This document shows, one piece after another, positions 1-64,000 of a DNA stretch of 64,000 nucleotides. Every line of letters begins with the position of its first letter. Position 1 is the first letter of the stretch. This DNA is from an uncultured Clostridia bacterium (GTDB lineage: Bacteria > Bacillota > Clostridia > Christensenellales > UBA1242), in the NCBI GenBank assembly GCA_947625515.1, contig CANQOO010000001.1, positions 62,001 through 126,000 on the forward strand, in the 5' to 3' direction. The notes beneath the pieces were generated by a model. It saw only the letters and a list, made by a program, of their open reading frames with translations. It did no database searches and had not been told where the DNA came from. The position numbers were made by a program, and so were the translations under genes.

Positions 1-2
1 GG

Positions 3-740
3 TTTGATTATAATAATAAATCAAGGGCGGTGTGCTATATTCAGCCGCTTAGCGTTGATGGAAAGGACTTTGTGGAATTTACGGGTGATGAAAGTGGCAC
101 ACTCAGCAAGCAGTTTGACCCAATTGACCTAGATTTCCAAATTGACAGTAAAGTAGTGAATGATATGAAAGGAACACTATTGCACGAGGGTATTGTAACT
201 GAAAATGAATTTCAAATGTCTAAACTCAGTTTTGATGGACCTCGTTTCAATATATTTTTTGCTGTTATAAATCTTGATGGTGATGCGGAACTTCCAGTGC
301 AATGCAATATTCAAAATTATACCAGTAGCGGAGATGCTGAATTCGAGCTTATATATGGGCCAACCGACAACGAAATTTTTGATCATGAATTTTCGGATGA
401 CTTACCGGTTGATGACGTAGTTCCTACTCAATCAGAAACTATGACTTTTTCGCAATATGCTGCTGAACTCAAACAGCAACTTAGTAGCAAGTGGAATGGA
501 AAATTTCCATACTATTATGAGAAATACGTGAATGGTGAATCTGCTTATTTTTTGGATGGGAATGCTTCAAATGAATTCTTGGCTGTTATTGGAACATATA
601 TTGAAAAAAGATTCCCGGGGATGTATGGTCTTCCTTCAAGTATAGATACGTTTCGATTTCTTATGAGTTCTGTGCTTCAGAATGCAATTAAAGAAGTCGC
701 ATTCTCTGGCGATATCAGCCTCACGTTAGGGACATTCTGA
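3..740 (+). CDS. Surface protein, subfamily A (3' part; 5' end outside window)
   Basis: Frame is open to the window start (FDYNNKSRAVCYIQPL...). C-terminal part closely resembles the 16142..17068 product (CYIQPL..FTG(D/N)ESGTLSKQFDPI(D/N)LDFQIDSKVV; ...FSGDISLTLGTF). Confidence 0.7.
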   Translation, partial: FDYNNKSRAVCYIQPLSVDGKDFVEFTGDESGTLSKQFDPIDLDFQIDSKVVNDMKGTLLHEGIVTENEFQMSKLSFDGPRFNIFFAVINLDGDAELPVQCNIQNYTSSGDAEFELIYGPTDNEIFDHEFSDDLPVDDVVPTQSETMTFSQYAAELKQQLSSKWNGKFPYYYEKYVNGESAYFLDGNASNEFLAVIGTYIEKRFPGMYGLPSSIDTFRFLMSSVLQNAIKEVAFSGDISLTLGTF

Positions 741-15201: not shown

Positions 15202-15873
15202 TTAAAGCGTCGGGATTGTGGTGTTGATTGTGGACGCTGTCGGATAGATTGGCAGGTCGGACAGCCCAGGGCAGGCACTTTGTTGTGGAGCCTGCTTGCA
15301 AGGCGGCAGAACTGGATAGCCATAAGACGGCACAAGCACATCAACAACGCTGACCACGCGGACGATGATTTGCACGCAACCCGTCACAGTGAAGACATTT
15401 GGAGCCGTGAAGGTGCCAATTCTGCTGCTGAAAATTCCAGTTGCGACAATGTCGATTGGGGCAAGAGCAGGTTGCGGCACAAACAGAATCACCGATTTTG
15501 TCACTGTCAAAGTGGAAAGGGCGGAGCCTAATGCACCGGTTGCGTCACTGTATGTGATTGTCACCGGGATTGTCAGCGTGAAAGAAACATTTGCGTAGTT
15601 TGGGCATGTTTCCAGACGGTCAATCACAAGGTCGCTGATTGTGGCAGTTTGCCCAGCGGTGTTTTCTGCCGAAACATATGTCAGCGGCTGCACTGGGTTG
15701 GCAGGGAAGAAGTCACTTCCTGTCAGGATGATGCCAGTTTCGGTCGTCGAGCAAACACACGCGTCAAACACTTTGGTTGTTTGAATCAAAATTTTCTCAC
15801 AAATGCCGTTTGTCACATTTCCACAAATTGGGCCAGGTCTGTTTGGGTTGGTGTTGTTTATGTAAAATGACAT
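15202..15873 (-). CDS. Hypothetical Cys-containing protein (possible spore-surface protein)
   Basis: MSFYINNTNPNRPGPICGNVTNGICEKILIQTTKVFDACVCSTTETG...; RBS aaggagg before ATG at 15873. Confidence 0.6.
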   Translation of the reverse strand: MSFYINNTNPNRPGPICGNVTNGICEKILIQTTKVFDACVCSTTETGIILTGSDFFPANPVQPLTYVSAENTAGQTATISDLVIDRLETCPNYANVSFTLTIPVTITYSDATGALGSALSTLTVTKSVILFVPQPALAPIDIVATGIFSSRIGTFTAPNVFTVTGCVQIIVRVVSVVDVLVPSYGYPVLPPCKQAPQQSACPGLSDLPIYPTASTINTTIPTL

Positions 15874-16086
15874 TTTAAACCTCCTTAAAATTCCATACAC
15901 CATTATGATATGCACCCGCCACTTCCTTTGCCACAAAAATGAGAAACAAAATCTAATAGTCCCTTATCTTTATATTTTTTATTTAATATCTTCATATCTT
16001 AAATTTTAAAATATCTTCATATCTTAAATTATATATATTTTTAATTTGTATCTTTTTAATTTGTATTTTAAATCATTTATTTTCAT

Positions 16087-16141: not shown

Positions 16142-17068
16142 TCAGAACGTCCCCAGTGTGAGACTTATGTCGCCAGAGAAAGAGGCGTCATTAATGTGAT
16201 TGCCTACACGCGTGAAAAGACCATACCAATACATCTCCTGAGGAAAAGATCTTGTAATAACGGCCCCCATGACAGCCAAGCATTCATTTGAAGCACTCCC
16301 ATCCAAGAAATAAGCATATTTACTGTTGATGCCTTGCGTTTGAAAATACGGAAATTCACCATTCCAATCTTCTGCATCAAGTTGTTGTTCGAGCTTAACA
16401 GCATATTGCGAGAAAGTCATCGTTTCTGACGACTTAGGGATTGTGAGATCAAGTGGTAACCAATCTGGCCAATCTTCTTCAAAAAATTCATCGTCATCTG
16501 GCCAATCTGCAAGCTCTGTATTACTAACATCTCCGTTCTTGTCAAAATTGTGAATATTATATTGCACAGGGAGTTCAGAATCCCCATCGAGATTTATGAC
16601 TGATAGAGATATTGTGAAACAGACCTGCTCATCAATGATAAGATTTGACATTTGAAATTTATCTTCTGTCACAGTTCCATCGTGCAATATCACTTCCTTC
16701 ATATCCTTCACAACCTTGCTGTCAATTTGGAAATCTAAATTAATTGGGTCGAATTGTTTGCTGAGTGTGCCGCTCTCATTTCCAGTAAATTCCATATAAT
16801 CTTGGTCGCCAATGGTAAGAGGCTGGATATAGCACAGGGTGCTGTCACCAGAATAACTCGGATAATTTTCCTTATCAACATAGCGGCATTCCACATAAGT
16901 CTCCACCCACCCTACAATGGCGGCCTTGACGTTTTTGGCGGTGTAGGAAATGTTGAATGTGCTGGAAACTTGTCCTTGCAGTGCGGCGAGGGTTATGCCC
17001 ACGGATGTTGCAGCCACCACAAGCACCATGGCAAAACACCCGACCACCGTCCATATTTTCTTTTTCAT
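16142..17068 (-). CDS. N-terminally anchored surface protein, subfamily A
   Basis: MKKKIWTVVGCFAMVLVVAATSVGITLAALQGQVSSTFNISYTAKNVKAAIVG...; RBS ggagaac before ATG at 17068; paralogue of 3..740; N-terminus resembles the 32434..33951 product. Confidence 0.8.
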   Translation of the reverse strand: MKKKIWTVVGCFAMVLVVAATSVGITLAALQGQVSSTFNISYTAKNVKAAIVGWVETYVECRYVDKENYPSYSGDSTLCYIQPLTIGDQDYMEFTGNESGTLSKQFDPINLDFQIDSKVVKDMKEVILHDGTVTEDKFQMSNLIIDEQVCFTISLSVINLDGDSELPVQYNIHNFDKNGDVSNTELADWPDDDEFFEEDWPDWLPLDLTIPKSSETMTFSQYAVKLEQQLDAEDWNGEFPYFQTQGINSKYAYFLDGSASNECLAVMGAVITRSFPQEMYWYGLFTRVGNHINDASFSGDISLTLGTF

Positions 17069-17120
17069 ATTTTTGTTCTCCTTTTTTGTTTTTTGTGTGC
17101 TTTTTTGCACACCTACCCCC

Positions 17121-17148
17121 ATTTTAGCGGGGGGGGGATTTTTGTCAA
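17121..17148 (-). promoter_or_regulatory. Predicted promoter with a C9 homopolymer in the -35/-10 spacer
   Basis: Minus strand reads TTGACA-AAAATCCCCCCCCCGC(16 nt)-TAAAAT, about 50 nt upstream of the ATG at 17068. Confidence 0.7.
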
Positions 17149-17454
17149 GTGATTTGCAAAAATTTTTTAAAAATTCTTCATTTTTTTTAGATTTTTGTCT
17201 TCTTAGGGCGTATTTTAGGCAAATTTTGGGCAAAAACTGCCCCAAAACGGGAAAACATAGGCAAAAACTTGCCGCAAATGCAAATTTTTTCCAAAAAAAA
17301 CATTTTTACTAATAACAATTTTAGAGGAGGGGCAAAAGTTGATGAGAAAGTCAAAGTTCATGAGAAAGCCCGCAAGTTTAAAAGTCCTAAACATGATTTT
17401 GGAGGTCAAAAAATAAAAATTCAAAAAAAATTTTAAAAATTTTGACAAAAATGT

Positions 17455-17483
17455 TTGACTTTTCTTTTTTAGGTGCATATAAT
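17455..17483 (+). promoter_or_regulatory. hrcA operon promoter
   Basis: TTGACT-N17-TATAAT just upstream of the CIRCE element. Confidence 0.85.
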
Positions 17484-17487
17484 AGTG

Positions 17488-17514
17488 CTAGCACTTGCAA
17501 GTCGAGAGTGCTAG
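17488..17514 (+). promoter_or_regulatory. CIRCE element (HrcA operator)
   Basis: CTAGCACTT-N9-GAGTGCTAG, close to the consensus TTAGCACTC-N9-GAGTGCTAA, immediately 5' of hrcA. Confidence 0.93.
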
Positions 17515-17539: not shown

Positions 17540-18523
17540 ATGGAACTTTCCGAAAGAAAAATCAAAATCCTGAACATTGCTGTGGAAGAGTTCATCAAAG
17601 ACAGTGCACCAATCACAAGTGGCTCTGTGAAGGATCATGCGTTGCTGGACTGCTCCACTGCCACGTTACGCAGCGAACTGAACGCCTTGGAGGCGATGGG
17701 GTTTTTGAAACAACTTCACACCTCGGGTGGCAGAGTGCCGACCGCACAGGGCTATCGATTTTATGTCGAAAACATGCTCAAAACGGTCAAGGCGACAAAC
17801 AGCGAGTTGAAAGCGGTGCGGCAGTTGATTGAAAATCGCACGCAAAATTTGAGCGAAATCATCTCCGGCATTGCAAAAATCATCAGCAAGGCGACAAACT
17901 ATCCCACTGTGGTGCTTGTGAACGGCATTGAAAACTTGATTTTGCAGGAGTTTAAGATTGTCCCGCTTTTTGGCGAAAAGTGCATGGTGCTGATCGGCAC
18001 AAACTATGGCTACATCACCCAACAACTGGACATTTCTGCCAGCCAGCAAAGCTGCGAGGACGCATCAAACTATCTCACCAAATATTTTAAGGGCGAAACG
18101 ATGGGCTTCTTGATGGACAACATCGACCAGTTTAAGAGCGGCATGAAGGGCGAGATTGCAGCGTTCCAGGGCGTTGTGGACAATGTTGTTGTGGGGCTTT
18201 CCAAACTTAACAAGCAAAAACTTTTGAATGTTCAGGCGGGCAGCATGGCGGACATGGTGGAACGCTCTGCCGACGACGCAAAAAGCGTGCTTAGGACGCT
18301 GAACGACGAAAGCGAGCTGATTGAAGTGCTGGACAGCAACGAGAAAGACATCTCCGCACGCATAGATGACGACAAATGCTCTGTGTTGAAAGCACCAATT
18401 TTGGTGGGCGGCAGGCAGGTCGCATCCATTGGGGTGTTTGGGCCGCAGAAGATGGACTATCTAAGCATCGCCTGTGCTTTGAAGGTGGTTGTGGACGAAC
18501 TTTCGGAAAATAAAGGAGATTGA
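17540..18523 (+). CDS. hrcA: Heat-inducible transcription repressor HrcA
   Basis: MELSERKIKILNIAVEEFIKDSAPITSGSV...GGRVPTAQGYRFYV; CIRCE upstream; followed by grpE-dnaK-dnaJ. Confidence 0.97.
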   Translation: MELSERKIKILNIAVEEFIKDSAPITSGSVKDHALLDCSTATLRSELNALEAMGFLKQLHTSGGRVPTAQGYRFYVENMLKTVKATNSELKAVRQLIENRTQNLSEIISGIAKIISKATNYPTVVLVNGIENLILQEFKIVPLFGEKCMVLIGTNYGYITQQLDISASQQSCEDASNYLTKYFKGETMGFLMDNIDQFKSGMKGEIAAFQGVVDNVVVGLSKLNKQKLLNVQAGSMADMVERSADDAKSVLRTLNDESELIEVLDSNEKDISARIDDDKCSVLKAPILVGGRQVASIGVFGPQKMDYLSIACALKVVVDELSENKGD

Positions 18524-39967: not shown

Positions 39968-40171
39968 TGCACTTTTCAAATTATGTAGTAACTTTGATTA
40001 AATTTAACCACAACTTTTGATAAAACGAATTATTTTGTGATGAAACCTATGCAAACTTATGATGAAATTTATGTAAATATTTGACGCAAAAATCTTTTGA
40101 ATGAATTATGCAAGTGTTTGACGGGACAAAACAAAAGAAAATGCACTATAGTGCTTGAAAGAAGGTGTTTT

Positions 40172-43100
40172 ATGACAAAAAGACTGAAAAACATTATGAT
40201 TGGTCTATTTGCAACGTTGGCTTTTGTGCTGACGGGCACCTTTTTTGCTGGATGCGGAATTGATTATTCAAAAATTTCGCTTGTGCCAGACCAAACAACT
40301 GTCAATTTGGCAGTTGGGGAGCAAAAAGACGTCTTGGTGAAAATAGACGGCTTCCAAAGTGGCTTCTCAAACAGGGTGACAATCACAAAAGAAAATCCTG
40401 CCATCTTCAAAACCTCAGTTGAAAATGTGGCGGAGGACGAAATTAAAATCACCATCACCGCACTTCAAGGCGGCAGCAGCAGCATGACTGTCAGCACGTG
40501 GGAGGGTGGCAAAACCTGTTCTTTGCAAGTGAATGTGCAACAGGCGTCCTCTTTTATCACGCCAAATCAAGACCTTTTGTATGTCTCTGGCAGCACGCCG
40601 TTTGTGCCAAACGCCAGCATGTTCAATTTTTCCGAAAACACCACCATCCGTCAACTTTCTTTCTTCTATATCAAGCATGTCAATCCGCTTGGCGGGGCGG
40701 AAGATGACGATTTTGACGGTGATTTGAATGAATACACCTTCCAAGGCTTCCAAAATGGCAGGGCAGTGTTTGAACAAGGCGAATCTCGCGAAGAATTTTC
40801 AGCAGTGCAATTTGACAAAATCTCTTTGCAGGAGGACGCTTTGGGAGAGGTTCATCTTCAAGCATCCTTCACCAACCCAGAAACTGGCGAAACGCAGCAA
40901 ACAACGCTGGATGCGGGCAGCAAGTTTTTGCTTTTGACCACATATCAGCCGTCTGATGAAGCATCGGACATCTTCAATGTTCGGGACGTGTTTGTGCTGC
41001 GTGACCTTGATGTGTCAATCACGGGCGGATATTTGCAGCAAACTCTTGGCTCTTATGTTGTGCGACAAGTTGGCGGAGAGGACGGCTTTGCCCCAATTTT
41101 TGAGAATGTTGAGGGTGTTGCCACTGCAAGACCTATCACAATCATCCCAAACAGAAGAGATTTTGTTCAATATGTTTTGAGAATCGAAACGCCGGCGTTT
41201 GCTCCGCAGACACCAATCAGCCTTCAAATGAACAAGACAAACGACAACGTCGTCATCGACTTCCTGGATTGCGAGGTTGCCGACGAAATTGACCCGCTCA
41301 AAGACCCAGCAAAGCATGTCTATTACATCCAAATTGCTCAAAACACTCTTCGCGAGGCGTCCACAAAACTTTCGCTTCGGGTCTTTTATGACATTGCCAA
41401 AAATGTCGGCGACCAAAGCGTGAATTTCGAATATGAATTTGATATAGACACCCAAATTGCTCCGGCAGGCATCCTCATTAATGGGCGGGAGATGCCAGAG
41501 GAATTTGTGCTTTACACAAACAATTTCAACGATTTTGGCTGGAAAGAATTTTATGTTGACGTCATTTCGGATTTTCAGAGCGAACCAACATTTGACGGAG
41601 TGACATTTGAATATCCGTTTGCAAGTTTGGATGTTGAAGTGTTCAATTCCAGAACATCCACCTGGTCGCCAGTGCGTCAGGGGCAGGTCTATTCTGACCT
41701 TGAAATGCCATTCCGTGTGAAGGGCAGAGATGGAGCGTTGCAGACAGATGACGCACAAATTGGCATCAAAGTGGTCAACAGCGGCATTTTGCAACAGCTT
41801 GGCGAAGACACCCTTTCCACCACCATAGATTGTGTGGTCAGGATGGGCTCCGACCACATTTCTGTGAGGGACGAATATCCCGTCGATGCATATTTTTATG
41901 TTGACTACGAAATTGCAAGTCAACAATTTTCTGCACAACTTTTTGCCGACCGACCTTTTGAATTTTTCACCTGCAATTTTGTCAGCGGCGTTGATGCCGT
42001 GGATATTGCCTTAAACAGTCAGCCGTGCCTTGCAAAACTGGAAAACGGCAAGACGTTATATTATCTCAACCTTACACTTTTGCCAAAAGCTATCGGCAGC
42101 GGGAAATATGACTTTTTCTTGGATAATGGTGCAACAATCAGCGTCACTTTTGATTGCAGAAAATTTTTAAAACAGTCCACAACCAGCATTTCTTTGACGC
42201 CAAACGATAATTCCGCGGTCACTTTCTCGCAAAAATATTCCTCGGACGACTCTTCCTTTTTGGACACGCTGTATATTGAAATTTTAAATCCTTCCGACAG
42301 GAATTCCATCATTTTTGGCAACTCCGCCACTTTTGAAATTGTGGCAAATGTGGATAGCTCCAACATCGCTGTGGATGCGGCATCCGATTTTCTCACCATT
42401 TCGCATCTTGCAAACAGATATACTCTCACCACCAGGGAGAGGAACGGCGAAACCACCATCAAGTTCACCTTGACTGGGCAACGCCTGATTGAAAATGATT
42501 TTCGTTTGGATGACCAAGAGTTGACAATCATTGACTTGTTTGTGAATGTCAGCACATATTCACTTGTGGACGAATTCTATCTTGCAAACAACGGCAGCTA
42601 TGCATATTCTCGCAATGTATATTTCGGCACATCCACCATTGCCAATGAAGAAAAAGAGGTGGATTATGATGCCGTGGCAAATCATCCAGAATCACGAAAT
42701 TTCTTCCAGCGTGTGCTTGACCCGTCCAGGCTTCCAGAAATTTTTGATGACGAAAATCTTGAAGGCATTGACCCAATTCGCGAAAATGGTGCGTTGACAG
42801 GTGAATATAGCCTGTATGGATTCACAATAAATGAAGCGGCATTTGACAGCATCTTTCCGCAACAGCTTGTGCATGACAGTTTCAGTGCAAGTGGAAATAA
42901 ATTTGTGACATTCTCTTTGCTGGACGGCGACGGCGATGTGCTTGCAAGCACAATCATTAACGGCGTTTTGACAAGATATGTCAACGGCGTTGAGGAAAAG
43001 AGCAAAAACATCCGCTTCACCATCCGTGGCGGGCATATGATTTGGCTGGACGAGATGTATGAATACACCACCGATGCCACAGGCGTGAGACTGAGATATG

Positions 43101-46100
43101 TGCTCACTTTCCCAAATTTGACATACACTGTGGCGGGATATGGCGAGTTTGACTTTGCCAGCATGACATATTCCAACAATTTCACAAATGCGGAAAGACC
43201 AATCACTTTCTCCGCACAAATCAGCCAGCGAGGCAAATCGCTCCGCTTCGATTCTGATGTCAACATCACCAGATACTTGCCAGTGGAGACCATTTCGCTG
43301 CCAACAAGACTGACTCAAATTGATTTTTCCAGTCAAAAACTGACCGAAACAATCGCTGTTTACACCTATCCAATCAGTTCCACCAACAACAACATCCAAA
43401 TTCAGTTTGTTCCAACGGGCAGCAAGGCATATCCAAGCATGGTGGAATGGACTGTGGACAGGACAAATGCTGCAAATGGCGTTTTTGTCATCACAATCTC
43501 TTGTGAAAACTTCTATAACAACAACGCCTTGCATGACGGCATCCCAATTGAGGAAATTGAGACCGCTTTGACGGGGGAATTATACATCTTCCCTGCTGAC
43601 TGGGGCTCTTCCTACACCTCGCTGATTGATGGGCACACACCAATCAGCCTTTCACTGCAATATCGCAACGGCTCGCGTGCAAACCCATACATCTTGGAGG
43701 ACGCCGACGATGTTGCCAACATCAATTTAAACGAAACCACCCTTCGCAGCCACTACGAACTTCGCACCAGCATCAGCCTTGCTTCATCCAATTTGCTGCC
43801 AATCGGCATTTTGGACGGAAAAATTGTCGGCTTTTCTGGCTCCATCATCGGCACAACATCACAAGCGGGATTCACGGATGTCATAATTTCTCAAAACAGT
43901 TTCTTGCAGTGTGTGGGTGAGGGCGAGGACGCCAAAAATTATGGCGGACTGTTTGCACAAATAAGCAGTTTGGGCGTATTGGAAAACTTCTCAATCTCCG
44001 GCAAGGTCGAACTTGACCTGGACGCTCAGGATTCTTACATCGGGCTGCTTGCCGCACAGAATTTTGGCAGCATCAAAAACGTCGGGGCGACGGTTGATGC
44101 GTCCACCATCCACACAACTGCCAAAAATTTATATTTGGGCGGACTTGTTGGGCTTAACTATGGCACAATCACGCAAGATTTGCGGGCATATGACGGCACG
44201 GGCTATCACTATCATAAATACAGCACAACGGTTGTTGGAAGCACGCCGGAGGAATTTGTGGACGGTGTGGGTTATGTCACCACCTTCGGTGCCACAGCAA
44301 TTATGGAAGACTCCGAAATTGGCAGATGTGCTGTTGCAGGCGGAGTGCAGATTCGCGTTGACGAGCAAAATTTTGCCATTGATGAAAATGGGATAAGAAT
44401 CAAGTTTGACGAAGAGGGCAACATCCTGCAGAAATCGCGAGATATGTCCGGACAAACTCCAAAAAATATGGCGTTCTTTAATGCAGACATGCTTGTTGAG
44501 GCTGCCCAGTCAGATGCGGAAATAAGAATTTATGCCGGCGGCGTTTGCGGGGCAAACAGCGGCAGAATTGAAAGATTTTCTCCGACAAATCCAGACTTTA
44601 ACACATATGGCTATGCGGCTTACAGTGCATACGCTCGCATTCAGGTTGCGGGGCAAGCCTCCCACGTTGCACTTGGCGGCATTGCAGGGCTTGCAAGTTA
44701 TTATGCAACCGAAAGAGACTTCTCTATGCCGGCTCCGAAAAAAGCGGACGTCCAGGACGAAGGGAATGTGCTTGACAATCTTCTTGTTGGCGGCAAACTT
44801 TCCACAATCTCCATGCCAGATTTTGCTGACGGCAAGTTTGACTATGTTGGCGGGCTGGTGGGATATGCCACCACAATGGGTGTATCCACACTCACGCTTT
44901 CTTCAAACACGGTCAGAACATTTGTGCATGGCCTTAAATATGTTGGCGGACTGGTCGGCTTTGAACAGGTGTTTGGTGGCGACGACGAAAAAGTTCGCCA
45001 TGTGACTTATGGAAGCAAAGAACAAAAGAATTTGTTCCAAGCGGTGGACGACGCCGAAGGTAGTTTGGCTGCTGCATCCATTTTGCGTGTTATTGCTTTT
45101 GAGGAAAATGATTTAAGAAAATTTAATGCCGCTTTTGGCGATGCGTCTTTTGCAGGCTCCAACTTGGTGCTTAGCATGGTCGGAAATTCTTATGACAACG
45201 GCAGAATCTACAACGAAATTGAAGCGGAAGTGCCAGACACATTCCTTGCCATTGAAGATTTGTTTGAGGCGGAAACATATGTGACACGCTCCGTCATCGA
45301 CCTCTTGCCAGAAGACGGCAACGAAAATGCCACACTTGGCTATGGCTCGCAGGAAACATATTATGGCGACTTTGTTGTGGTGGGCAGAAACACATATCAC
45401 AACGCAGAAACTTCCAGTGATGAGTTGACTGGCACATATGATGTGAAACTGTCCAAGAAATTCACACAAAAAATCATCAATCTCGAACTTGAAAGAAGCA
45501 AATTCTCCATGACGCCGCAAAGCGAAGCGGAAAACTTGCCAGATGTGCTGTTTATGTATTATTTCCATGTTGAATCGGATGTGGCACAGACCCTTGGAAG
45601 TTTTGCACAAAATGAGATTGAACGCCTCAATTTTGTCACACCTTACATGAGCGAATTTTATCCACTTAATTTTGTGCTTTCCAATCCGGAAGTCAGCATA
45701 ACTGCAACATCCGGCATGATTGACATCGACATGAACGGCAACATCACCCTGAAAGGCACCGGCATTGGCACACTCACCATTTCCAGCCTTCTCAACGCTC
45801 GCGAAAGCAGGGTGGTGTATGTGTATGTTGTCAACTATTTCAATCCAAGCATCTCTTCTTCCATTTTCTTTGCTCCGTCCAGTCAGTTTGAAGACCAGCG
45901 AATTGAAAACAGCGAAGTGACCATTTATGGAGATTCTTACGTCCAGCTTTTCATGCAACCAAACTATGCTCTTTCTCAGCAGCAGACCGCCGATGGCGAG
46001 ACTTTTGCTGTCACAGATGACGGCGTGCTGATGTTCCGCAATGTGGCATATCTGCTTTCAAGCAGCTCGCAGCTTTCTGCAAGTGCAGAGACGGATGCCG

Positions 46101-49100
46101 AGGAAAGATTTTCCTCCGCAGACGTTATTGGTCAAAGAGTGGTGTTCAAGAGGATGAACTCTTCAAGCGTGCAGGATGTATATGACCTTGTGCCAATTCT
46201 TCGCACAACAATCAAAATTGACGGGGAAGAATATGTTTTCTATAAAAAACTGGACAAGGCTGGCACAAAAATTTATTTGAACTATTCCGAGTCTGCCACA
46301 GCAATCCTTTTGCTTGGGGGCGACAAGCTTTCCATGGCGACAAATCAAGAACTTGACGAAACAATCTTGATTGAAACCACAAACCCTCCGGGGCAGGAAA
46401 TGCTTTTCTACGAAATTCGACGCCTGGACGGTGGCTATGTGCAGGCAAAACATCCGCAGACCATCACTGACGAAACTTTCAAAGATTATGGCGACGAAGA
46501 CGACTCGGCTGATGCAAAATATCTCAACTATTTGAATGATTATTCGGATTCTCATCTTGCTGGCGGGGCAAAGAATGACCTGTTTGCCATCACCTTCAAA
46601 CGCTTGCAGCAACTGGGCAGTGACGGGGCGATGCACATCACAAACAACTTTGCATTCAATCTTCAAGTGAACAAAAACAGCAGCCACTATGCAAACCGCT
46701 TTGACACACCAATCACTGGGCAATATCTTTTCACTTTCTTCGCCACAAACGGAAACATTTCGGACAGCTTTGTGCTTACACTTGATGAGGCACAACTAAG
46801 TTATGTCAGTGTCAACAACTTCTCCGACCTTCAAAACGTCAACGCTCCAAACGAAGTCGTGGAGCCAGGCACAAAAGGGCTTTTGGAAATTTCGCTCAAC
46901 CCGCTGGATGCCATTTTTGACCGCTTTACAATTTCCAATGATGCCATAAATGACGGCGAAGGGGCGGGCAAGGCACAATTCACATTTGCTTATCGCACAT
47001 CAACTGGTTTTGGAGAACTTCAAGGATTTGGCAATTTCGAAAATGGCAATGTGCTCACTTTCACATATCAAGAAATGAAGGCCAGACTGGAAGAAATTGC
47101 GTTGCGAGACGCCACAATAAGGCCATATGTCGGGAAAATTTATGTGACATATTTTATGGCTTCATATAACGTTCAAGACAATGTTCCGGTTGCGTTTAAT
47201 GTTTCGGTGACGCCGTTCGAAGGCAGCGGGGTGACACAATTTGCCACAATTTCTCTCAAAACAAAAATTGGCAGTTTTGCAAGATTTGCTGTTGACGGCA
47301 AAACTTTGCAAAATGGCGGATATTATGTGGCACGCGGGCTTTCTTATGACCTTTCTTTGCAAACCTCTGGATTTGAAGAAAGCCAAGTTTCTGTCCGCAT
47401 GAAAAATCAGGGCGATTTTGTGCCGCTGACAGAAATTGCCGCAGGGCGAACTTTTGAATATTTCACATTGTCAAAGGTGGATGGACAATATGTGCTTCAA
47501 ATTGCGTCCACACACATCCCATACAACGATGCAGAGAATTTTGAAATTGACATTGAGGTGCTGGCTTCCAAAGTAATCAACAGCGTTGTGGTGGAAAGCC
47601 TCAGCACACTGAAAATTTTTGTGATGGAATATGTCTTTAACTATCACTACCAGTCGGGCGAAAATCAAGACATTGTTGGGCAGATGCGAAACGGCGTTGT
47701 CAATATTGCTGTCGGAAATCCATTCACGCCAGAGCTTGCCATTTGGAACTTGCTGGAATATGACCATTCCAACGCGGATGTGCTTTTGGAAGTGGAAAAT
47801 TTTGTTGCAGAAATGTCAGCTCATGTGACGTGGTCGGTGGTGCTTGATGGTCAGGAGACCATCCTCACTGCTGGCAGTCAGACAATCAGAACGCCTTACT
47901 ATCTCATCAACGGCTTGACCATCACGCCAATCAGACTTTACAGTTCGGCAGAGGATATCTATCATTTTGCTGTCAACGGCTTCTACAACATTTCAAGCGG
48001 GCGATATCACTTCTCAAATTCTCCGGAAGGGGCGAATGTGCTTCACAGCGAATTTGCATTTGATGTGCATGACCAAAGTGCAAAAGAAAGCCCGATTCCA
48101 ATCAGAACATATCAAGAACTTTTAGATATGCAGCCAGACAGCTGGTATATCCTCTTGCATGACATCGACATTCCGAATGCGGCAGATTGTCTTGAAGGCG
48201 GGCTGGAAAACTTTGCACCAATCACAACACAAATTGCTGGGCTTGACGGCAACGGCTTTGCATTCAACTTTTCTGGGATATATGATTTTGCAACTGAAAC
48301 CGCCGCAGGGCTTTTTGGCACTGTGGCAGAAGGGGCTCTGCTTCAAAACATCATCATCAGGCTGCAAAGCGACGTCACCTTCCACATGAATCAATCAAGT
48401 TTTGATGTCGCACTTTTGGCGGCTGTCAACGAGGGCATCATCACAAACGCACAAACGGAAGCAACGTTTGGGGCGTCTTTCAGCGTGAACTCCGCTGTTT
48501 TGGCATCCGACGCATCCGTGGCAGGACTGGTTGCAGAAAATGAAGGCATAATCACCAATTCTCGCACCACAGTTGATATCTCTGCTCCATATGACCTTGC
48601 AGGATTTGCCGCTGCAAACCGCGGACAAATTTCAAGCTCGTTCTTCCGCGGGGCAAGCCTGAGAAATACATCATCACGCACCCAAGAAAGGGCGGCAGGC
48701 TTTGTGCTTGACAACAGCGGAGAAATTTACACCTCATATGTCAGTGGCGACATGGAGAACGATTTTGAAGATGGCGTCAGAATGAATAACCAATCTTCCA
48801 TGTATTATCATGGCGGCTCGTCTGTGCCGGCAAACACCATCACCTCCGGAAACAACGTTTCAGGATTTGTTTATCACAACACTGGCACGATTGAAGATTC
48901 ATATTCAAACATCTATCTATATCAAAACGGCAGAGGTGCTGGCTTTGTGTATGAAAACTCCTCACGCATTGCCAGATGCTTCTCAACAAGTGTGCTGGCA
49001 AGCCGCAACGTGGAAAGTTTTGGCTTTGCAGAACAGAACACCATTGTGGACGCCAATCAGCAACGACAAGGCGGAACGATTGAAGACTGCTATTTCTTGC

Positions 49101-51205
49101 AGCATCAGGCCGAGGGCTTGGATGACCAAGATGTCAATTTCAGCGTGAAAACGCTTGAAAATGACGAAAACACCGACATCACTCCGCTTGATATCAAAAA
49201 CTTTAAGTTTATCTTCGACCGCAACACGCAGCAGCTTGAAAATCCTGAGGCGGTGAATGGGAAAATTCCGTTTGAGGGCTTTGCTGTAAGTTATGGCAGA
49301 AACACCAATTCCGTTTGGTTCTATGACGACACATTTGAAGGCATGAAGACTGGCTTCAATGGCACAAACTTCAACCTTTATAGGCCGGAACTTGTTGCTC
49401 CAAACGTTAAGGCAAATTCTCAAAGAAATTTGGAAAATGTTGAGACGATCGTTGACCCGCAGACGGGGGCAGAATATTCAAAATACACATATGTATATGA
49501 TGTTGGCACGCCAACGCTGGGGTCGGAATATAATCCAATCCTTCTGACGGATGCACAAGATTTTGAAACTTACATTTTGCGAGAATGCGACAGCATGTCC
49601 AACAACTATGCAAACTATCGCCTTGTTTCGGACATTGACTTCCGAGAATATGACGACAACAGTGCTCTTTATCGTGTCAATTTCTTGGGCAGTCTTGAAG
49701 GCAATTTCATGTCGCTTAGCGGCATCAACTTGCAAGCCGCTGATGAGGGGCAATTTGCTGGGCTCTTCGCCTCAATTGCAGCAGAAGATGACAATGTTGG
49801 CACAGTCATGAACTTGACATACTCTCCAAACACAGTTTCATTCGCAAATGCTGAGGTGGTTGGCGGACTGGTCGGCAAATTGGACGGCGGAAAGCTTATC
49901 AATATTCAGATGCCGCAAAGCAACGGCAGCGTGATTATTGGCAAAAACATCGTGGGCGGCATGGTCGGAATGGCGGTTGGCGACTTTGAAATTAAATGTG
50001 TCAGCAGCGATTATGGTGCCACGGCGACCAGCCAATCAATCAGTTCCAACAACTTTGACGTCGAAGCGACAAACTTCCAAAACTGCTCTTTTGCAGGCTC
50101 TGTTGCCGGCGTTTTAAGCGGCACAGGTGTGGTGCAAAATGTCAAATCGGACAACACACTTGCAGTGATGGGGGCAAAAATCGGTTTGTTGTTTGGACTC
50201 ATTGATTCTCGCGTCCGGGCAAGTGACATCCGTCTCAATATGCATGCCTCGGACATGCTCAACGGCTATCAATATGCCGGGCTGGTTGCGGGAGAATCCA
50301 AAGGCACAATATCAAACGTTCAAATTCTTGGCAGCGACGCGTTTGGCGGGTTCAGGACAAATCCATATGTTCCGGTTGCCGTGGGCGGTTTTGCAGGCCT
50401 TGTCAGCGGCGGGCGATTGGACGGAATTTCCATGACTCAGGACCTCTCTCTCAGCACAATAAGCTCCGACAAGGGCATTGAATTTATGGGTGGCATTGCG
50501 GGAGAGATTTCTGCTGGTGTCACAGTCAGCAACATCGACGTGGAATGCGACATCTTGGGCTTCAACTATGTTGGTGGCGTGGCAGGAAAAATATCTGCCG
50601 ACAATCAAGTTGTCAAATTTGAAAACATCAATGTTGATGCCAATCTGTCTGTGGTCGGCAGAATGGTGGAAGATGTTGGCATTGCTGGCCTTGCAGCATA
50701 TGTCCTTTCAGGCTCCATTATTTCACTGGACGCCACCGAAGTTGATGGCGAACAGCAATATAATCACTTCAACATCGGTGCACACGTCAACATATACATA
50801 TACTCCGAACAATTTGAGGTCAACACATTGTCCATAGATGTTGGGGCAATCCTTGGCAGATGCGGCTCTCGTGCACACACCATTGCCCACACAATTTCTT
50901 CCCTGCACAAAGCGGACGACGTCAGCGGAGATGACATTGTCGTCGATGACCTGTCCATGGTCGGCCAGCCAGAACTTTCCTCGCACGTTGAGGTGGTTGC
51001 GGACGAAGAAGGCTTGCCAATTCTTTCAAACACCTCTCAGCATCAGGAAATGGGATTGCCATGGTCATCCTTCAATGTGTCACATTACGCCGTTGCAGGT
51101 TGCAAGTCTTATTGCAACTTGACTGCTGTTCAAAGTGCCACGATATATTTGGAAAACATCTCAATTTTTGGCGATATAGTGTTGGAAGATGCTCTTGAAA
51201 TGTAA
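40172..51205 (+). CDS. Giant (about 3.7 kaa) lipoprotein-like surface protein with GLUG-like repeats
   Basis: Signal peptide with lipobox-like FFAGC (MTKRLKNIMIGLFATLAFVLTGTFFAGCG); many GGLVG/GGIAG/GLVAGES units; RBS gaaggtg before ATG 40172. Confidence 0.88.
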   Translation: MTKRLKNIMIGLFATLAFVLTGTFFAGCGIDYSKISLVPDQTTVNLAVGEQKDVLVKIDGFQSGFSNRVTITKENPAIFKTSVENVAEDEIKITITALQGGSSSMTVSTWEGGKTCSLQVNVQQASSFITPNQDLLYVSGSTPFVPNASMFNFSENTTIRQLSFFYIKHVNPLGGAEDDDFDGDLNEYTFQGFQNGRAVFEQGESREEFSAVQFDKISLQEDALGEVHLQASFTNPETGETQQTTLDAGSKFLLLTTYQPSDEASDIFNVRDVFVLRDLDVSITGGYLQQTLGSYVVRQVGGEDGFAPIFENVEGVATARPITIIPNRRDFVQYVLRIETPAFAPQTPISLQMNKTNDNVVIDFLDCEVADEIDPLKDPAKHVYYIQIAQNTLREASTKLSLRVFYDIAKNVGDQSVNFEYEFDIDTQIAPAGILINGREMPEEFVLYTNNFNDFGWKEFYVDVISDFQSEPTFDGVTFEYPFASLDVEVFNSRTSTWSPVRQGQVYSDLEMPFRVKGRDGALQTDDAQIGIKVVNSGILQQLGEDTLSTTIDCVVRMGSDHISVRDEYPVDAYFYVDYEIASQQFSAQLFADRPFEFFTCNFVSGVDAVDIALNSQPCLAKLENGKTLYYLNLTLLPKAIGSGKYDFFLDNGATISVTFDCRKFLKQSTTSISLTPNDNSAVTFSQKYSSDDSSFLDTLYIEILNPSDRNSIIFGNSATFEIVANVDSSNIAVDAASDFLTISHLANRYTLTTRERNGETTIKFTLTGQRLIENDFRLDDQELTIIDLFVNVSTYSLVDEFYLANNGSYAYSRNVYFGTSTIANEEKEVDYDAVANHPESRNFFQRVLDPSRLPEIFDDENLEGIDPIRENGALTGEYSLYGFTINEAAFDSIFPQQLVHDSFSASGNKFVTFSLLDGDGDVLASTIINGVLTRYVNGVEEKSKNIRFTIRGGHMIWLDEMYEYTTDATGVRLRYVLTFPNLTYTVAGYGEFDFASMTYSNNFTNAERPITFSAQISQRGKSLRFDSDVNITRYLPVETISLPTRLTQIDFSSQKLTETIAVYTYPISSTNNNIQIQFVPTGSKAYPSMVEWTVDRTNAANGVFVITISCENFYNNNALHDGIPIEEIETALTGELYIFPADWGSSYTSLIDGHTPISLSLQYRNGSRANPYILEDADDVANINLNETTLRSHYELRTSISLASSNLLPIGILDGKIVGFSGSIIGTTSQAGFTDVIISQNSFLQCVGEGEDAKNYGGLFAQISSLGVLENFSISGKVELDLDAQDSYIGLLAAQNFGSIKNVGATVDASTIHTTAKNLYLGGLVGLNYGTITQDLRAYDGTGYHYHKYSTTVVGSTPEEFVDGVGYVTTFGATAIMEDSEIGRCAVAGGVQIRVDEQNFAIDENGIRIKFDEEGNILQKSRDMSGQTPKNMAFFNADMLVEAAQSDAEIRIYAGGVCGANSGRIERFSPTNPDFNTYGYAAYSAYARIQVAGQASHVALGGIAGLASYYATERDFSMPAPKKADVQDEGNVLDNLLVGGKLSTISMPDFADGKFDYVGGLVGYATTMGVSTLTLSSNTVRTFVHGLKYVGGLVGFEQVFGGDDEKVRHVTYGSKEQKNLFQAVDDAEGSLAAASILRVIAFEENDLRKFNAAFGDASFAGSNLVLSMVGNSYDNGRIYNEIEAEVPDTFLAIEDLFEAETYVTRSVIDLLPEDGNENATLGYGSQETYYGDFVVVGRNTYHNAETSSDELTGTYDVKLSKKFTQKIINLELERSKFSMTPQSEAENLPDVLFMYYFHVESDVAQTLGSFAQNEIERLNFVTPYMSEFYPLNFVLSNPEVSITATSGMIDIDMNGNITLKGTGIGTLTISSLLNARESRVVYVYVVNYFNPSISSSIFFAPSSQFEDQRIENSEVTIYGDSYVQLFMQPNYALSQQQTADGETFAVTDDGVLMFRNVAYLLSSSSQLSASAETDAEERFSSADVIGQRVVFKRMNSSSVQDVYDLVPILRTTIKIDGEEYVFYKKLDKAGTKIYLNYSESATAILLLGGDKLSMATNQELDETILIETTNPPGQEMLFYEIRRLDGGYVQAKHPQTITDETFKDYGDEDDSADAKYLNYLNDYSDSHLAGGAKNDLFAITFKRLQQLGSDGAMHITNNFAFNLQVNKNSSHYANRFDTPITGQYLFTFFATNGNISDSFVLTLDEAQLSYVSVNNFSDLQNVNAPNEVVEPGTKGLLEISLNPLDAIFDRFTISNDAINDGEGAGKAQFTFAYRTSTGFGELQGFGNFENGNVLTFTYQEMKARLEEIALRDATIRPYVGKIYVTYFMASYNVQDNVPVAFNVSVTPFEGSGVTQFATISLKTKIGSFARFAVDGKTLQNGGYYVARGLSYDLSLQTSGFEESQVSVRMKNQGDFVPLTEIAAGRTFEYFTLSKVDGQYVLQIASTHIPYNDAENFEIDIEVLASKVINSVVVESLSTLKIFVMEYVFNYHYQSGENQDIVGQMRNGVVNIAVGNPFTPELAIWNLLEYDHSNADVLLEVENFVAEMSAHVTWSVVLDGQETILTAGSQTIRTPYYLINGLTITPIRLYSSAEDIYHFAVNGFYNISSGRYHFSNSPEGANVLHSEFAFDVHDQSAKESPIPIRTYQELLDMQPDSWYILLHDIDIPNAADCLEGGLENFAPITTQIAGLDGNGFAFNFSGIYDFATETAAGLFGTVAEGALLQNIIIRLQSDVTFHMNQSSFDVALLAAVNEGIITNAQTEATFGASFSVNSAVLASDASVAGLVAENEGIITNSRTTVDISAPYDLAGFAAANRGQISSSFFRGASLRNTSSRTQERAAGFVLDNSGEIYTSYVSGDMENDFEDGVRMNNQSSMYYHGGSSVPANTITSGNNVSGFVYHNTGTIEDSYSNIYLYQNGRGAGFVYENSSRIARCFSTSVLASRNVESFGFAEQNTIVDANQQRQGGTIEDCYFLQHQAEGLDDQDVNFSVKTLENDENTDITPLDIKNFKFIFDRNTQQLENPEAVNGKIPFEGFAVSYGRNTNSVWFYDDTFEGMKTGFNGTNFNLYRPELVAPNVKANSQRNLENVETIVDPQTGAEYSKYTYVYDVGTPTLGSEYNPILLTDAQDFETYILRECDSMSNNYANYRLVSDIDFREYDDNSALYRVNFLGSLEGNFMSLSGINLQAADEGQFAGLFASIAAEDDNVGTVMNLTYSPNTVSFANAEVVGGLVGKLDGGKLINIQMPQSNGSVIIGKNIVGGMVGMAVGDFEIKCVSSDYGATATSQSISSNNFDVEATNFQNCSFAGSVAGVLSGTGVVQNVKSDNTLAVMGAKIGLLFGLIDSRVRASDIRLNMHASDMLNGYQYAGLVAGESKGTISNVQILGSDAFGGFRTNPYVPVAVGGFAGLVSGGRLDGISMTQDLSLSTISSDKGIEFMGGIAGEISAGVTVSNIDVECDILGFNYVGGVAGKISADNQVVKFENINVDANLSVVGRMVEDVGIAGLAAYVLSGSIISLDATEVDGEQQYNHFNIGAHVNIYIYSEQFEVNTLSIDVGAILGRCGSRAHTIAHTISSLHKADDVSGDDIVVDDLSMVGQPELSSHVEVVADEEGLPILSNTSQHQEMGLPWSSFNVSHYAVAGCKSYCNLTAVQSATIYLENISIFGDIVLEDALEM

Positions 51206-61895: not shown

Positions 61896-63262
61896 ATGAG
61901 ACGTAAATTCGCGGGGGGGGGATTTTTGATAAGCTGAAATACACCGGCTTTGTTTGTCTTTTTCTTTTTGTTATCACTTGCACTATGGCTAACATTGTTT
62001 TGGCTGCTCTTTCGACCGGAATCGAGGGCGGCTTTTCTGTTATCTATGACGTGCCGCAGGACCTGTGGGACAATATATCCCAAATTTTTGACAGATACAA
62101 TGTCAACAAACTTTTGTGGAACATTTCAGGCGACAGCACAGCGACGGTGGACAATATGGCACCGATTGAGGCCCTCGCAGCAACAAGGATGACATCTGCG
62201 GACATGATTGCAAATTACAACAAGGTGAACCCCGCATCTGCGAACGCCGATTTGTCTGCATATGCAAACTCCGCTTCTGCTGATGCCGCTTATTATTCAT
62301 CCGCAAATGCTGCTTCTGTTTCTGCAAATCCCGCCACATCAAGCGAATATTTAATTCCTGCAAACTTTGCTTCTGCGGACGACGATTATTCCGTCTCTGC
62401 CATGAGCAATAATGCAGAAATTATTGTCACATTTGCCGGGCTTAAATGGACGCCAGTATATCTTTCCACCACCAACGAGGGAAAAGACAACGAACCACAC
62501 GATGTCATTCTCACTCTTTGGCTTACTGACGCCTCGCAACTGAGTGGAGAAACTTATGCCGACGGGAAAACATTTGATGAAAACGGAAATTCCACTTGGA
62601 GCAGTGGCTTTTCTTCAAGCGATAACACACGCGTGCCATATCCATCAGCAATGTATGGAACAAGTTATATGAGTGCTGTTGTCTTGAATAATGGCGGCGG
62701 ATATATCACAAGTGAGGGTGCAACAGAATTGACACAAGCACAGCAAAATGCAAGCAGCGTTTTTGCCAAATTCACAATGAAGGATTTTGGCTTGGCACAA
62801 TATTTGGTGACACCTGAGCATGTGCTGTGGCAGAAGGAGGGTCAAAGTACACAAACTTTTATTGGTGGCGAAGATGCCATATCGTATAACTGCCCGAACG
62901 AAAACTGGTCAAATGATGTGCCAGACGATGGGTTCTATGTGGATGAAAATGGCGATGCAACAAAATATAACTACGCCCATAAAACGGGCAATGATGCATG
63001 GAAAGATGATTATCTTTGGTTGCCATCCCTATCAGAGACGGGCTATACTAATAAGTATAACGGGATTTGGTGCACATCTGAGAACCAACGTAAAAACATG
63101 GCATATTCGTGGTCACGCACAGGCTATTATAGTTATTCTAACTATGCATACTATTTTACGCCAGGTGGCTATTACTGGCGATACCATGTTGAGAGTACTT
63201 ATGGCGTCCGTCCAGCACTGCACTTGAACCTCACTGAGGTGGCGAAAAGCCTGAAAAAATAA
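61896..63262 (+). CDS. Surface protein, subfamily B copy 1; G9 tract puts the start out of frame (phase OFF)
   Basis: RBS aaaggagag-ATG AGA CGT AAA TTC GC-G9-ATTTTTGATAAGCTGA reaches an early stop. Adding one G joins it to the 425-aa ORF at 61985 (MANIVLAALSTGIEGG...VRPALHLNLTEVAKSLKK). Confidence 0.8.
61913..61921 (+). repeat. G9 homopolymer contingency tract (OFF length)
   Basis: Counted directly: gc + 9 g + attttt. Confidence 0.9.
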
Positions 63263-63645: not shown

Positions 63646-64000
63646 ATGAGACGTAAATTCGCGGGGGGGGGGATTTTTGATAAACTAAAATTAACCGGCT
63701 TTGTTTGCTTGTTTCTCTTTGTCATCACTTGCACTATGGCTAACATTGTTTTGGCTGCTCTTTCGACTGGAATCGAGGGCGGCTTTTCTGTTATCTATGA
63801 AATTCCGCAGGACCTATGGGACCGAGTGTCACAAATCTTTGACAAAAGCAATGTCAACAAACTGTTGTGGAACATCTCAGGCGACAACACAGCGACGGTG
63901 GACAATATGGCACCGATTGAAGCCCTTGCAGCAAGCAGGATGACCTCAGAAGACATGATTGCAAACTACAACAAGGTGAACCCCGCATCTGTTGACAAGG
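63646..64000 (+). CDS. Surface protein, subfamily B copy 2; G10 tract in frame (phase ON); 3' end outside window
   Basis: ATG AGA CGT AAA TTC GCG GGG GGG GGG ATT TTT GAT AAA CTA ... ATG GCT AAC ATT GTT is open to the window end; near-identical to copy 1. Missed in the ORF track, likely because its stop lies outside the window. Confidence 0.85.
   Translation, partial: MRRKFAGGGIFDKLKLTGFVCLFLFVITCTMANIVLAALSTGIEGGFSVIYEIPQDLWDRVSQIFDKSNVNKLLWNISGDNTATVDNMAPIEALAASRMTSEDMIANYNKVNPASVDK
63663..63672 (+). repeat. G10 homopolymer contingency tract (ON length)
   Basis: Counted directly: gc + 10 g + attttt. Confidence 0.9.

Follow-up and report, generated by a model that had tools for sequence, protein, structure and literature searches.

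Introduction

Changes in the length of a repeat in the promoter region switch transcription of hif in Haemophilus influenzae, where a dinucleotide repeat lies in overlapping divergent promoters. In Neisseria, a homopolymer is found between the −10 and −35 elements of opc, porA and fetA, poly-C in the case of opc and fetA, and these tracts have been described as altering promoter spacing and thus the transcription of surface proteins (PMC2791445; PMC5320596). Three transcriptional phase-variable genes have been listed for one gonococcal strain (PMC5320596). The surface-subunit genes fim2, fim3 and fimX of Bordetella also carry a promoter poly-C, whose length affects transcript level in a way that depends on how far the −10 is from an activator site (PMC1891110). 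Here we examined a run of nine cytosines (C9) upstream of a gene encoding a 308-aa membrane-anchored surface-type protein in an uncultured Clostridia bacterium. The tract lies in a 64,000-nt stretch of DNA, hereafter the window (assembly GCA_947625515.1, contig CANQOO010000001.1, positions 62,001 to 126,000), and a preliminary description had taken it for a transcriptional phase switch. Comparison with paralogues and with other species strongly supports that proposal, the support being one of sequence comparison, and the C9 is very probably a spacer element whose length turns the window promoter randomly on or off, or high or low.

Results

Direct reading of the sequence agrees exactly with the arrangement first described, that is, a C9 inside the −35/−10 spacer of TTGACA-16 nt-TAAAAT upstream of the ATG at 17068, the position that the homopolymer occupies in opc, porA and fetA. 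The elements of the locus are as follows:

17149..17200, minus strand, A/T-rich stretch resembling an UP element, 5′ of the −35 (from sequence and comparison of tract promoters)
17148-17143, minus strand, −35 hexamer TTGACA, six of six consensus positions, kept in the paralogous copies
17142-17127, minus strand, 16-nt spacer AAAATCCCCCCCCCGC, that is AAAAT-C9-GC, read from the sequence
17137-17129, minus strand, C9 homopolymer, proposed variable element (C9, C10 and C11 in paralogous promoters)
17126-17121, minus strand, −10 hexamer TAAAAT, five of six consensus positions
17095..17112, minus strand, GTGTGC-A6-GCACAC, a short inverted repeat within what is presumed to be the 5′ leader, only partly kept in paralogues
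17082-17078, minus strand, Shine-Dalgarno sequence AGGAG, 9 nt 5′ of the ATG
17068-17066, minus strand, ATG of the window gene
16142..17068, minus strand, gene under the proposed switch, 308-aa membrane-anchored surface-type protein

The −10 lies 52 nt from the ATG and the C9 ends 60 nt upstream of it. In a consensus scan, the region upstream of the gene contained no other sigma-70-like site on the minus strand; this one matched at 11 of 12 positions, with a spacer of 16 nt. Sigma-70-like sites by themselves were not significant (4 found vs 4.1 expected in shuffled sequence), so that the evidential weight rests on the C9 tract. A transcript hairpin formed by the C9 and the G5 after the −10 was considered and rejected, because any transcript initiated from this −10 would begin downstream of the tract, with a start predicted near 17114-17111.

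We compared the window promoter with its closest relatives; all differences in tract length reported here are between loci or between species. Across four paralogous promoters, the segment spanning TGACAAAAAT, the tract and GCTAAAATGGGGGTAGGTGT was invariant except for the number of C, which was 9, 9, 10 and 11, giving spacers of 16, 16, 17 and 18 nt that straddle 17 (one further start region and one upstream piece end at contig edges). A second paralogous set, encoding proteins of 547-608 aa, carried C9, C10, C10 and C11. The same held between species: a lipoprotein gene with products 92-95% identical in three species read TTGACAAAT-[C9 / C10 / C8T]-GTTTTATAAT. Homologues of this lipoprotein at about 57% and 54% identity had a poly-G8 spacer and a different C9 context, respectively. 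Promoters that are otherwise identical thus differ in the length of the tract, and homologous genes carry poly-C in one species and poly-G in another.

Long C/G runs were far more abundant than expected. In the window, runs of 4 (129), 5 (22) and 6 (1) gave way to none of 7 or 8, followed by two of 9 and one of 10. The 1.11-Mb genome contained about 34 runs of at least 9, against about 2.3 expected under a first-order model, and these were grouped in three classes. Class A comprises 15 tracts of C9-C11 placed directly 3′ of TTGACA and followed by a −10-like hexamer. A search with the pattern TTGACAN{2,7}C7N{2,10}TANNNT, using the reversed pattern as control, recovered 14 distinct poly-C-spacer promoters, against 0 for the control; the −35 of the fifteenth is cut by a contig end. 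A chance origin of tract placement is excluded by these controls. Class B comprises 15 tracts of G9 or G10 located 17 nt past the ATG in one gene family. The five other tracts, class C, include three in coding frames, all G9 (G000 C10:13099, C6:4294 and C6:10436), one of which directly follows a lipobox cysteine region (LGCGGGGII) in a long lipoprotein-like frame. The remaining two, a G9 and a G11 with common flanks (G000 C6:54437 and C6:55452, L221), are intergenic; they separate tandem genes for 220-aa anchor-family proteins, with the following ATG ∼270-280 nt away, and are not part of a −35/−10 spacer.

In the 20 nt upstream of the tract promoters (own genome and genus), A+T content was 84% vs 65% in the background, as expected of UP elements, and TGn preceded the −10 in 40 of 82 promoters from own-genome and genus loci; at those with long spacers, TGn may make the −35 less necessary. 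An N-terminal hydrophobic segment was present in 10/13 of the first genes after tract promoters in the own genome and 38/58 in the genus, compared to 6/19 neighbouring ORFs.

Poly-C spacers occurred in 32 of the 61 sampled congeners and poly-G spacers in 23, the union being 35, while the reversed control gave 0 in both cases. The poly-G type was numerous in two genomes, G084, with 13 promoters of one type (G9-G11; L244-L256), and G067, with 14 (G8-G11; L230-L243), mostly preceding membrane-anchored proteins of 400-475 aa. In an order-wide sample of 151 genomes, nine carried a C8 spacer match. Two of them belong to this genus (G000 and G065), a third to a different genus in the same family, and the remaining six to other families. 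Outside the own genome, each had a single match. Among the matches listed by a GTDB contig scan were many metagenome-assembled genomes (MAGs) of uncultured Clostridia and, repeatedly, Mucispirillum. The latter are MAGs of a distant lineage (Deferribacterota) with poly-C-spacer promoters of the same pattern, at L108, L110, L116, L117, L119, L125, L132, L142, L146, L168, L170 and L172. In the open-licence literature searched, we found no paper that describes homopolymer promoter switches for such Clostridia or for Mucispirillum.

Class B genes begin with MRRKFA-GGG or a close variant, and the G9/G10 tract sets their reading frame. Nine of the 15 were out of frame with intact downstream frames of 235-460 aa, and six were in frame, a state sometimes reached via flank changes instead of tract length. 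Thirteen of them lie elsewhere in the genome and two in the window:

61896..63262, plus strand, out of frame, G9 at 61913-61921, 17 nt after the ATG; reads 13 aa, with a downstream 446-aa frame open
63646..64000, plus strand, in frame, G10 at 63663-63672, 17 nt after the ATG; 462 aa, extending past the window end

Here the tract stands in the reading frame near the start codon, which is not the case in the window gene. The flank of the window promoter, CAAAAAT-C9-GC, is the reverse complement of the flank at many class B coding tracts. It had been proposed that one surface family uses both the promoter and the coding level. This idea stands through some of the poly-C-promoter paralogues, whose C-terminal region recurs in the class B genes; the 608-aa paralogue is 47% identical to a class B protein over 451 columns (E = 3e-111). 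It does not extend so far for the window gene itself, whose product gave no meaningful BLASTP match to a class B protein and is linked only through the N-terminal anchor common to the larger class A proteins. Both the poly-C-promoter and the class B groups gave weak matches to DUF6273 that fell short of the curated cut-off. Taken together, the sequences support a two-level homopolymer system acting at promoters and at coding starts.

Among 50 tract-free TTGACA...TATAAT promoters of the own genome, the modal spacer was 17 nt (23/50), and 41/50 had spacers of 16-18 nt. The earlier statement that one more C would give the window promoter its optimal 17-nt spacer is therefore right, and C10 is predicted to be its strongest form. 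The same arithmetic fails for 10 of the 15 tract promoters, which have spacers of 19-20 nt (20 nt at C1:22521-22552, for example).

The window protein has the N-terminal signal/transmembrane (TM) anchor MKKKIWTVVGCFAMVLVVAATSVGITLAAL, and its location may be the cell surface. A Pfam search assigned it no family. Structure prediction gave a mostly beta-rich ectodomain at low confidence (pLDDT 65, pTM 0.67), and Foldseek found no match to this model in the PDB with E < 0.001; a TasA/camelysin-like fold, considered from the anchor motif, was not supported, as no PDB match was significant. The protein had 17 matches in its own genome and 11 in genome G019, and a GTDB contig scan with it found no relative. 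Besides the window gene, the own genome holds three other full-length copies (63-75% identity), making four in all, and further proteins have the N-terminal anchor in common with it. In an alignment of 12 own-genome members, the anchor S-x-GIT-x-AA-x-x-G-x-V-x3-F-x3-YTA-x-NV was invariant. One of the paralogues and the divergent neighbour of the window gene are located in the window:

1..740, plus strand, 3′ part of a paralogue whose protein is 63% identical; the C9 promoter of this paralogue is just beyond the window edge (C1:61743-61770)
17540..18523, plus strand, hrcA, divergent neighbour, outside the switch
17455-17483, plus strand, hrcA promoter TTGACT-17-TATAAT
17488-17514, CIRCE-like operator, an inverted repeat (CTAGCACTC-N9-AAGTGCTAG) within the hrcA-grpE-dnaK leader

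Contigs of G000 end in or beside the cassette of the window promoter at the start of C2 and at the ends of C8, C9 and C5, so further copies may be absent from the assembly. Just downstream of the window gene, a 244-aa ORF (15202-15936, minus strand) had no Pfam match, and a 3702-aa ORF is located at 40097-51205 (plus strand). Rfam and tRNA searches of the window gave no match.

Discussion

The most economical account of these data is slipped-strand mispairing that changes the spacer. According to it, the C9 would be a hypermutable homopolymer in the spacer of a real housekeeping-sigma promoter, and mispairing would add or remove C's, so that the present spacer of 16 nt would become 17 nt with C10 and 18 nt with C11. 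RNA polymerase would then contact both hexamers better or worse, and transcription of the surface-protein gene would shift between levels randomly, heritably and reversibly. The same device would operate at about 15 promoters of the own genome and widely in the genus, mostly before genes with signal/TM segments, and a related surface-protein group would use poly-G tracts inside the coding start instead. We infer the slippage, its rate, its effect on transcription and which length would be ON from sequence. Slippage is the natural reading in this genome because 9/15 of the coding G-tract genes are out of frame while their downstream frames are intact. The presence of one arrangement at about 15 genes and in over half of the sampled relatives makes a length-dependent switch very probable.

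Two observations weigh against such a switch. First, 10 of the 15 class A spacers measure 19-20 nt, a length at odds with the 16-18 nt of most tract-free promoters (Fisher p = 0.0007), so gain or loss of a single base would still leave these spacers off the optimum; across the genus, spacer length showed a main peak at 16 and rose again at 19. Second, tract length is peaked at 9, both in genus poly-C promoters (69/107) and in coding tracts (13/15), which is narrower than free slippage would suggest. Selection, mismatch repair or MAG consensus calling could cause this concentration. Loss of mismatch repair as a cause of the tracts was considered and is unsupported, a MutS domain being found in 59/61 genus genomes.

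The peak at 9 would also suit a tract that is a fixed structural or protein-binding element, such as A-form-like DNA or a regulator site, whose length is not meant to vary. A preference for T before the C run (77/107 genus poly-C promoters) and G after it (82/107) points in the same direction, and this flank bias recurs at several unrelated coding tracts of the own genome. We nevertheless regard a fixed element as unlikely, because near-identical promoters vary in length, homologous genes carry poly-C or poly-G according to species with differing flanks, and tracts of the same length occur in coding starts, more than half of which are out of frame. Still less probable is that the tract is a passenger of a duplicated promoter/anchor cassette, with recombination among near-identical copies shuffling the surface proteins. 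Such a cassette does exist, since promoter and start region are 98% identical over 193 nt between the window gene and the paralogue at 1..740, other copies match at 88-100% identity over shorter lengths, and the ends of several contigs fall within it; however, orthologues in other species and unrelated genes, including lipoproteins and an ABC-transporter ATPase, have spacer tracts without the cassette. Finally, a chance C run beside promoter-like sequence, or an assembly artefact or miscalled homopolymer, is scarcely credible: promoter-like sites by themselves are no more frequent in this A/T-rich stretch than chance predicts, and an exact tract length read from a MAG may be wrong by one base, but 15 of about 34 tracts fall in spacers against 0 for control patterns, and the same device is seen in dozens of genomes that were assembled separately.

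Beyond the window promoter, we lean slightly towards a broader view of a length-dependent switch, in which this genus of small-genome, uncultured gut Clostridia would hold much of its surface repertoire under two-level homopolymer switches, poly-C and poly-G spacers having been gained independently in different species and tract length being kept near 9 by some constraint. If true, the Firmicutes would have a counterpart of the Neisseria phasome, one of greater extent at the promoter level. The mechanism is already known; the host lineage and the scale appear undescribed in the open-licence literature searched. Such switches are most familiar from a small number of genes in mucosal Proteobacteria, and their occurrence at 14-15 promoters in one genome and in 35/61 congeners suggests that this uncultured lineage relies on random surface variation as a main strategy. 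The loci also form a catalogue whose switching is directly testable in existing metagenomic reads.

With respect to known systems, the analogies originally drawn with Bordetella fim and Haemophilus hif need correcting. In contrast to fim, a consensus −35 stands here on the other side of the tract, TTGACA lying directly upstream of it in all class A promoters whose sequence is complete (no search for an activator site was made). The hif repeat differs in that the window gene has a mononucleotide tract in a single promoter. Homopolymer switches in coding starts, as in Helicobacter and Campylobacter, resemble the 15 class B genes, in which the G9/G10 after the ATG sets the frame; these switches act on translation, whereas the window tract lies upstream of the expected transcript. 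The exact analogues are opc, porA and fetA of Neisseria, in which the homopolymer lies within the −35/−10 spacer as at the window promoter. There, a few single genes of a Gram-negative host are concerned, while the device is found here in a Clostridia lineage at about 15 promoters of a genome and, unlike in Neisseria, paralogous sets are placed under one promoter type, with both poly-C and poly-G versions across the genus.
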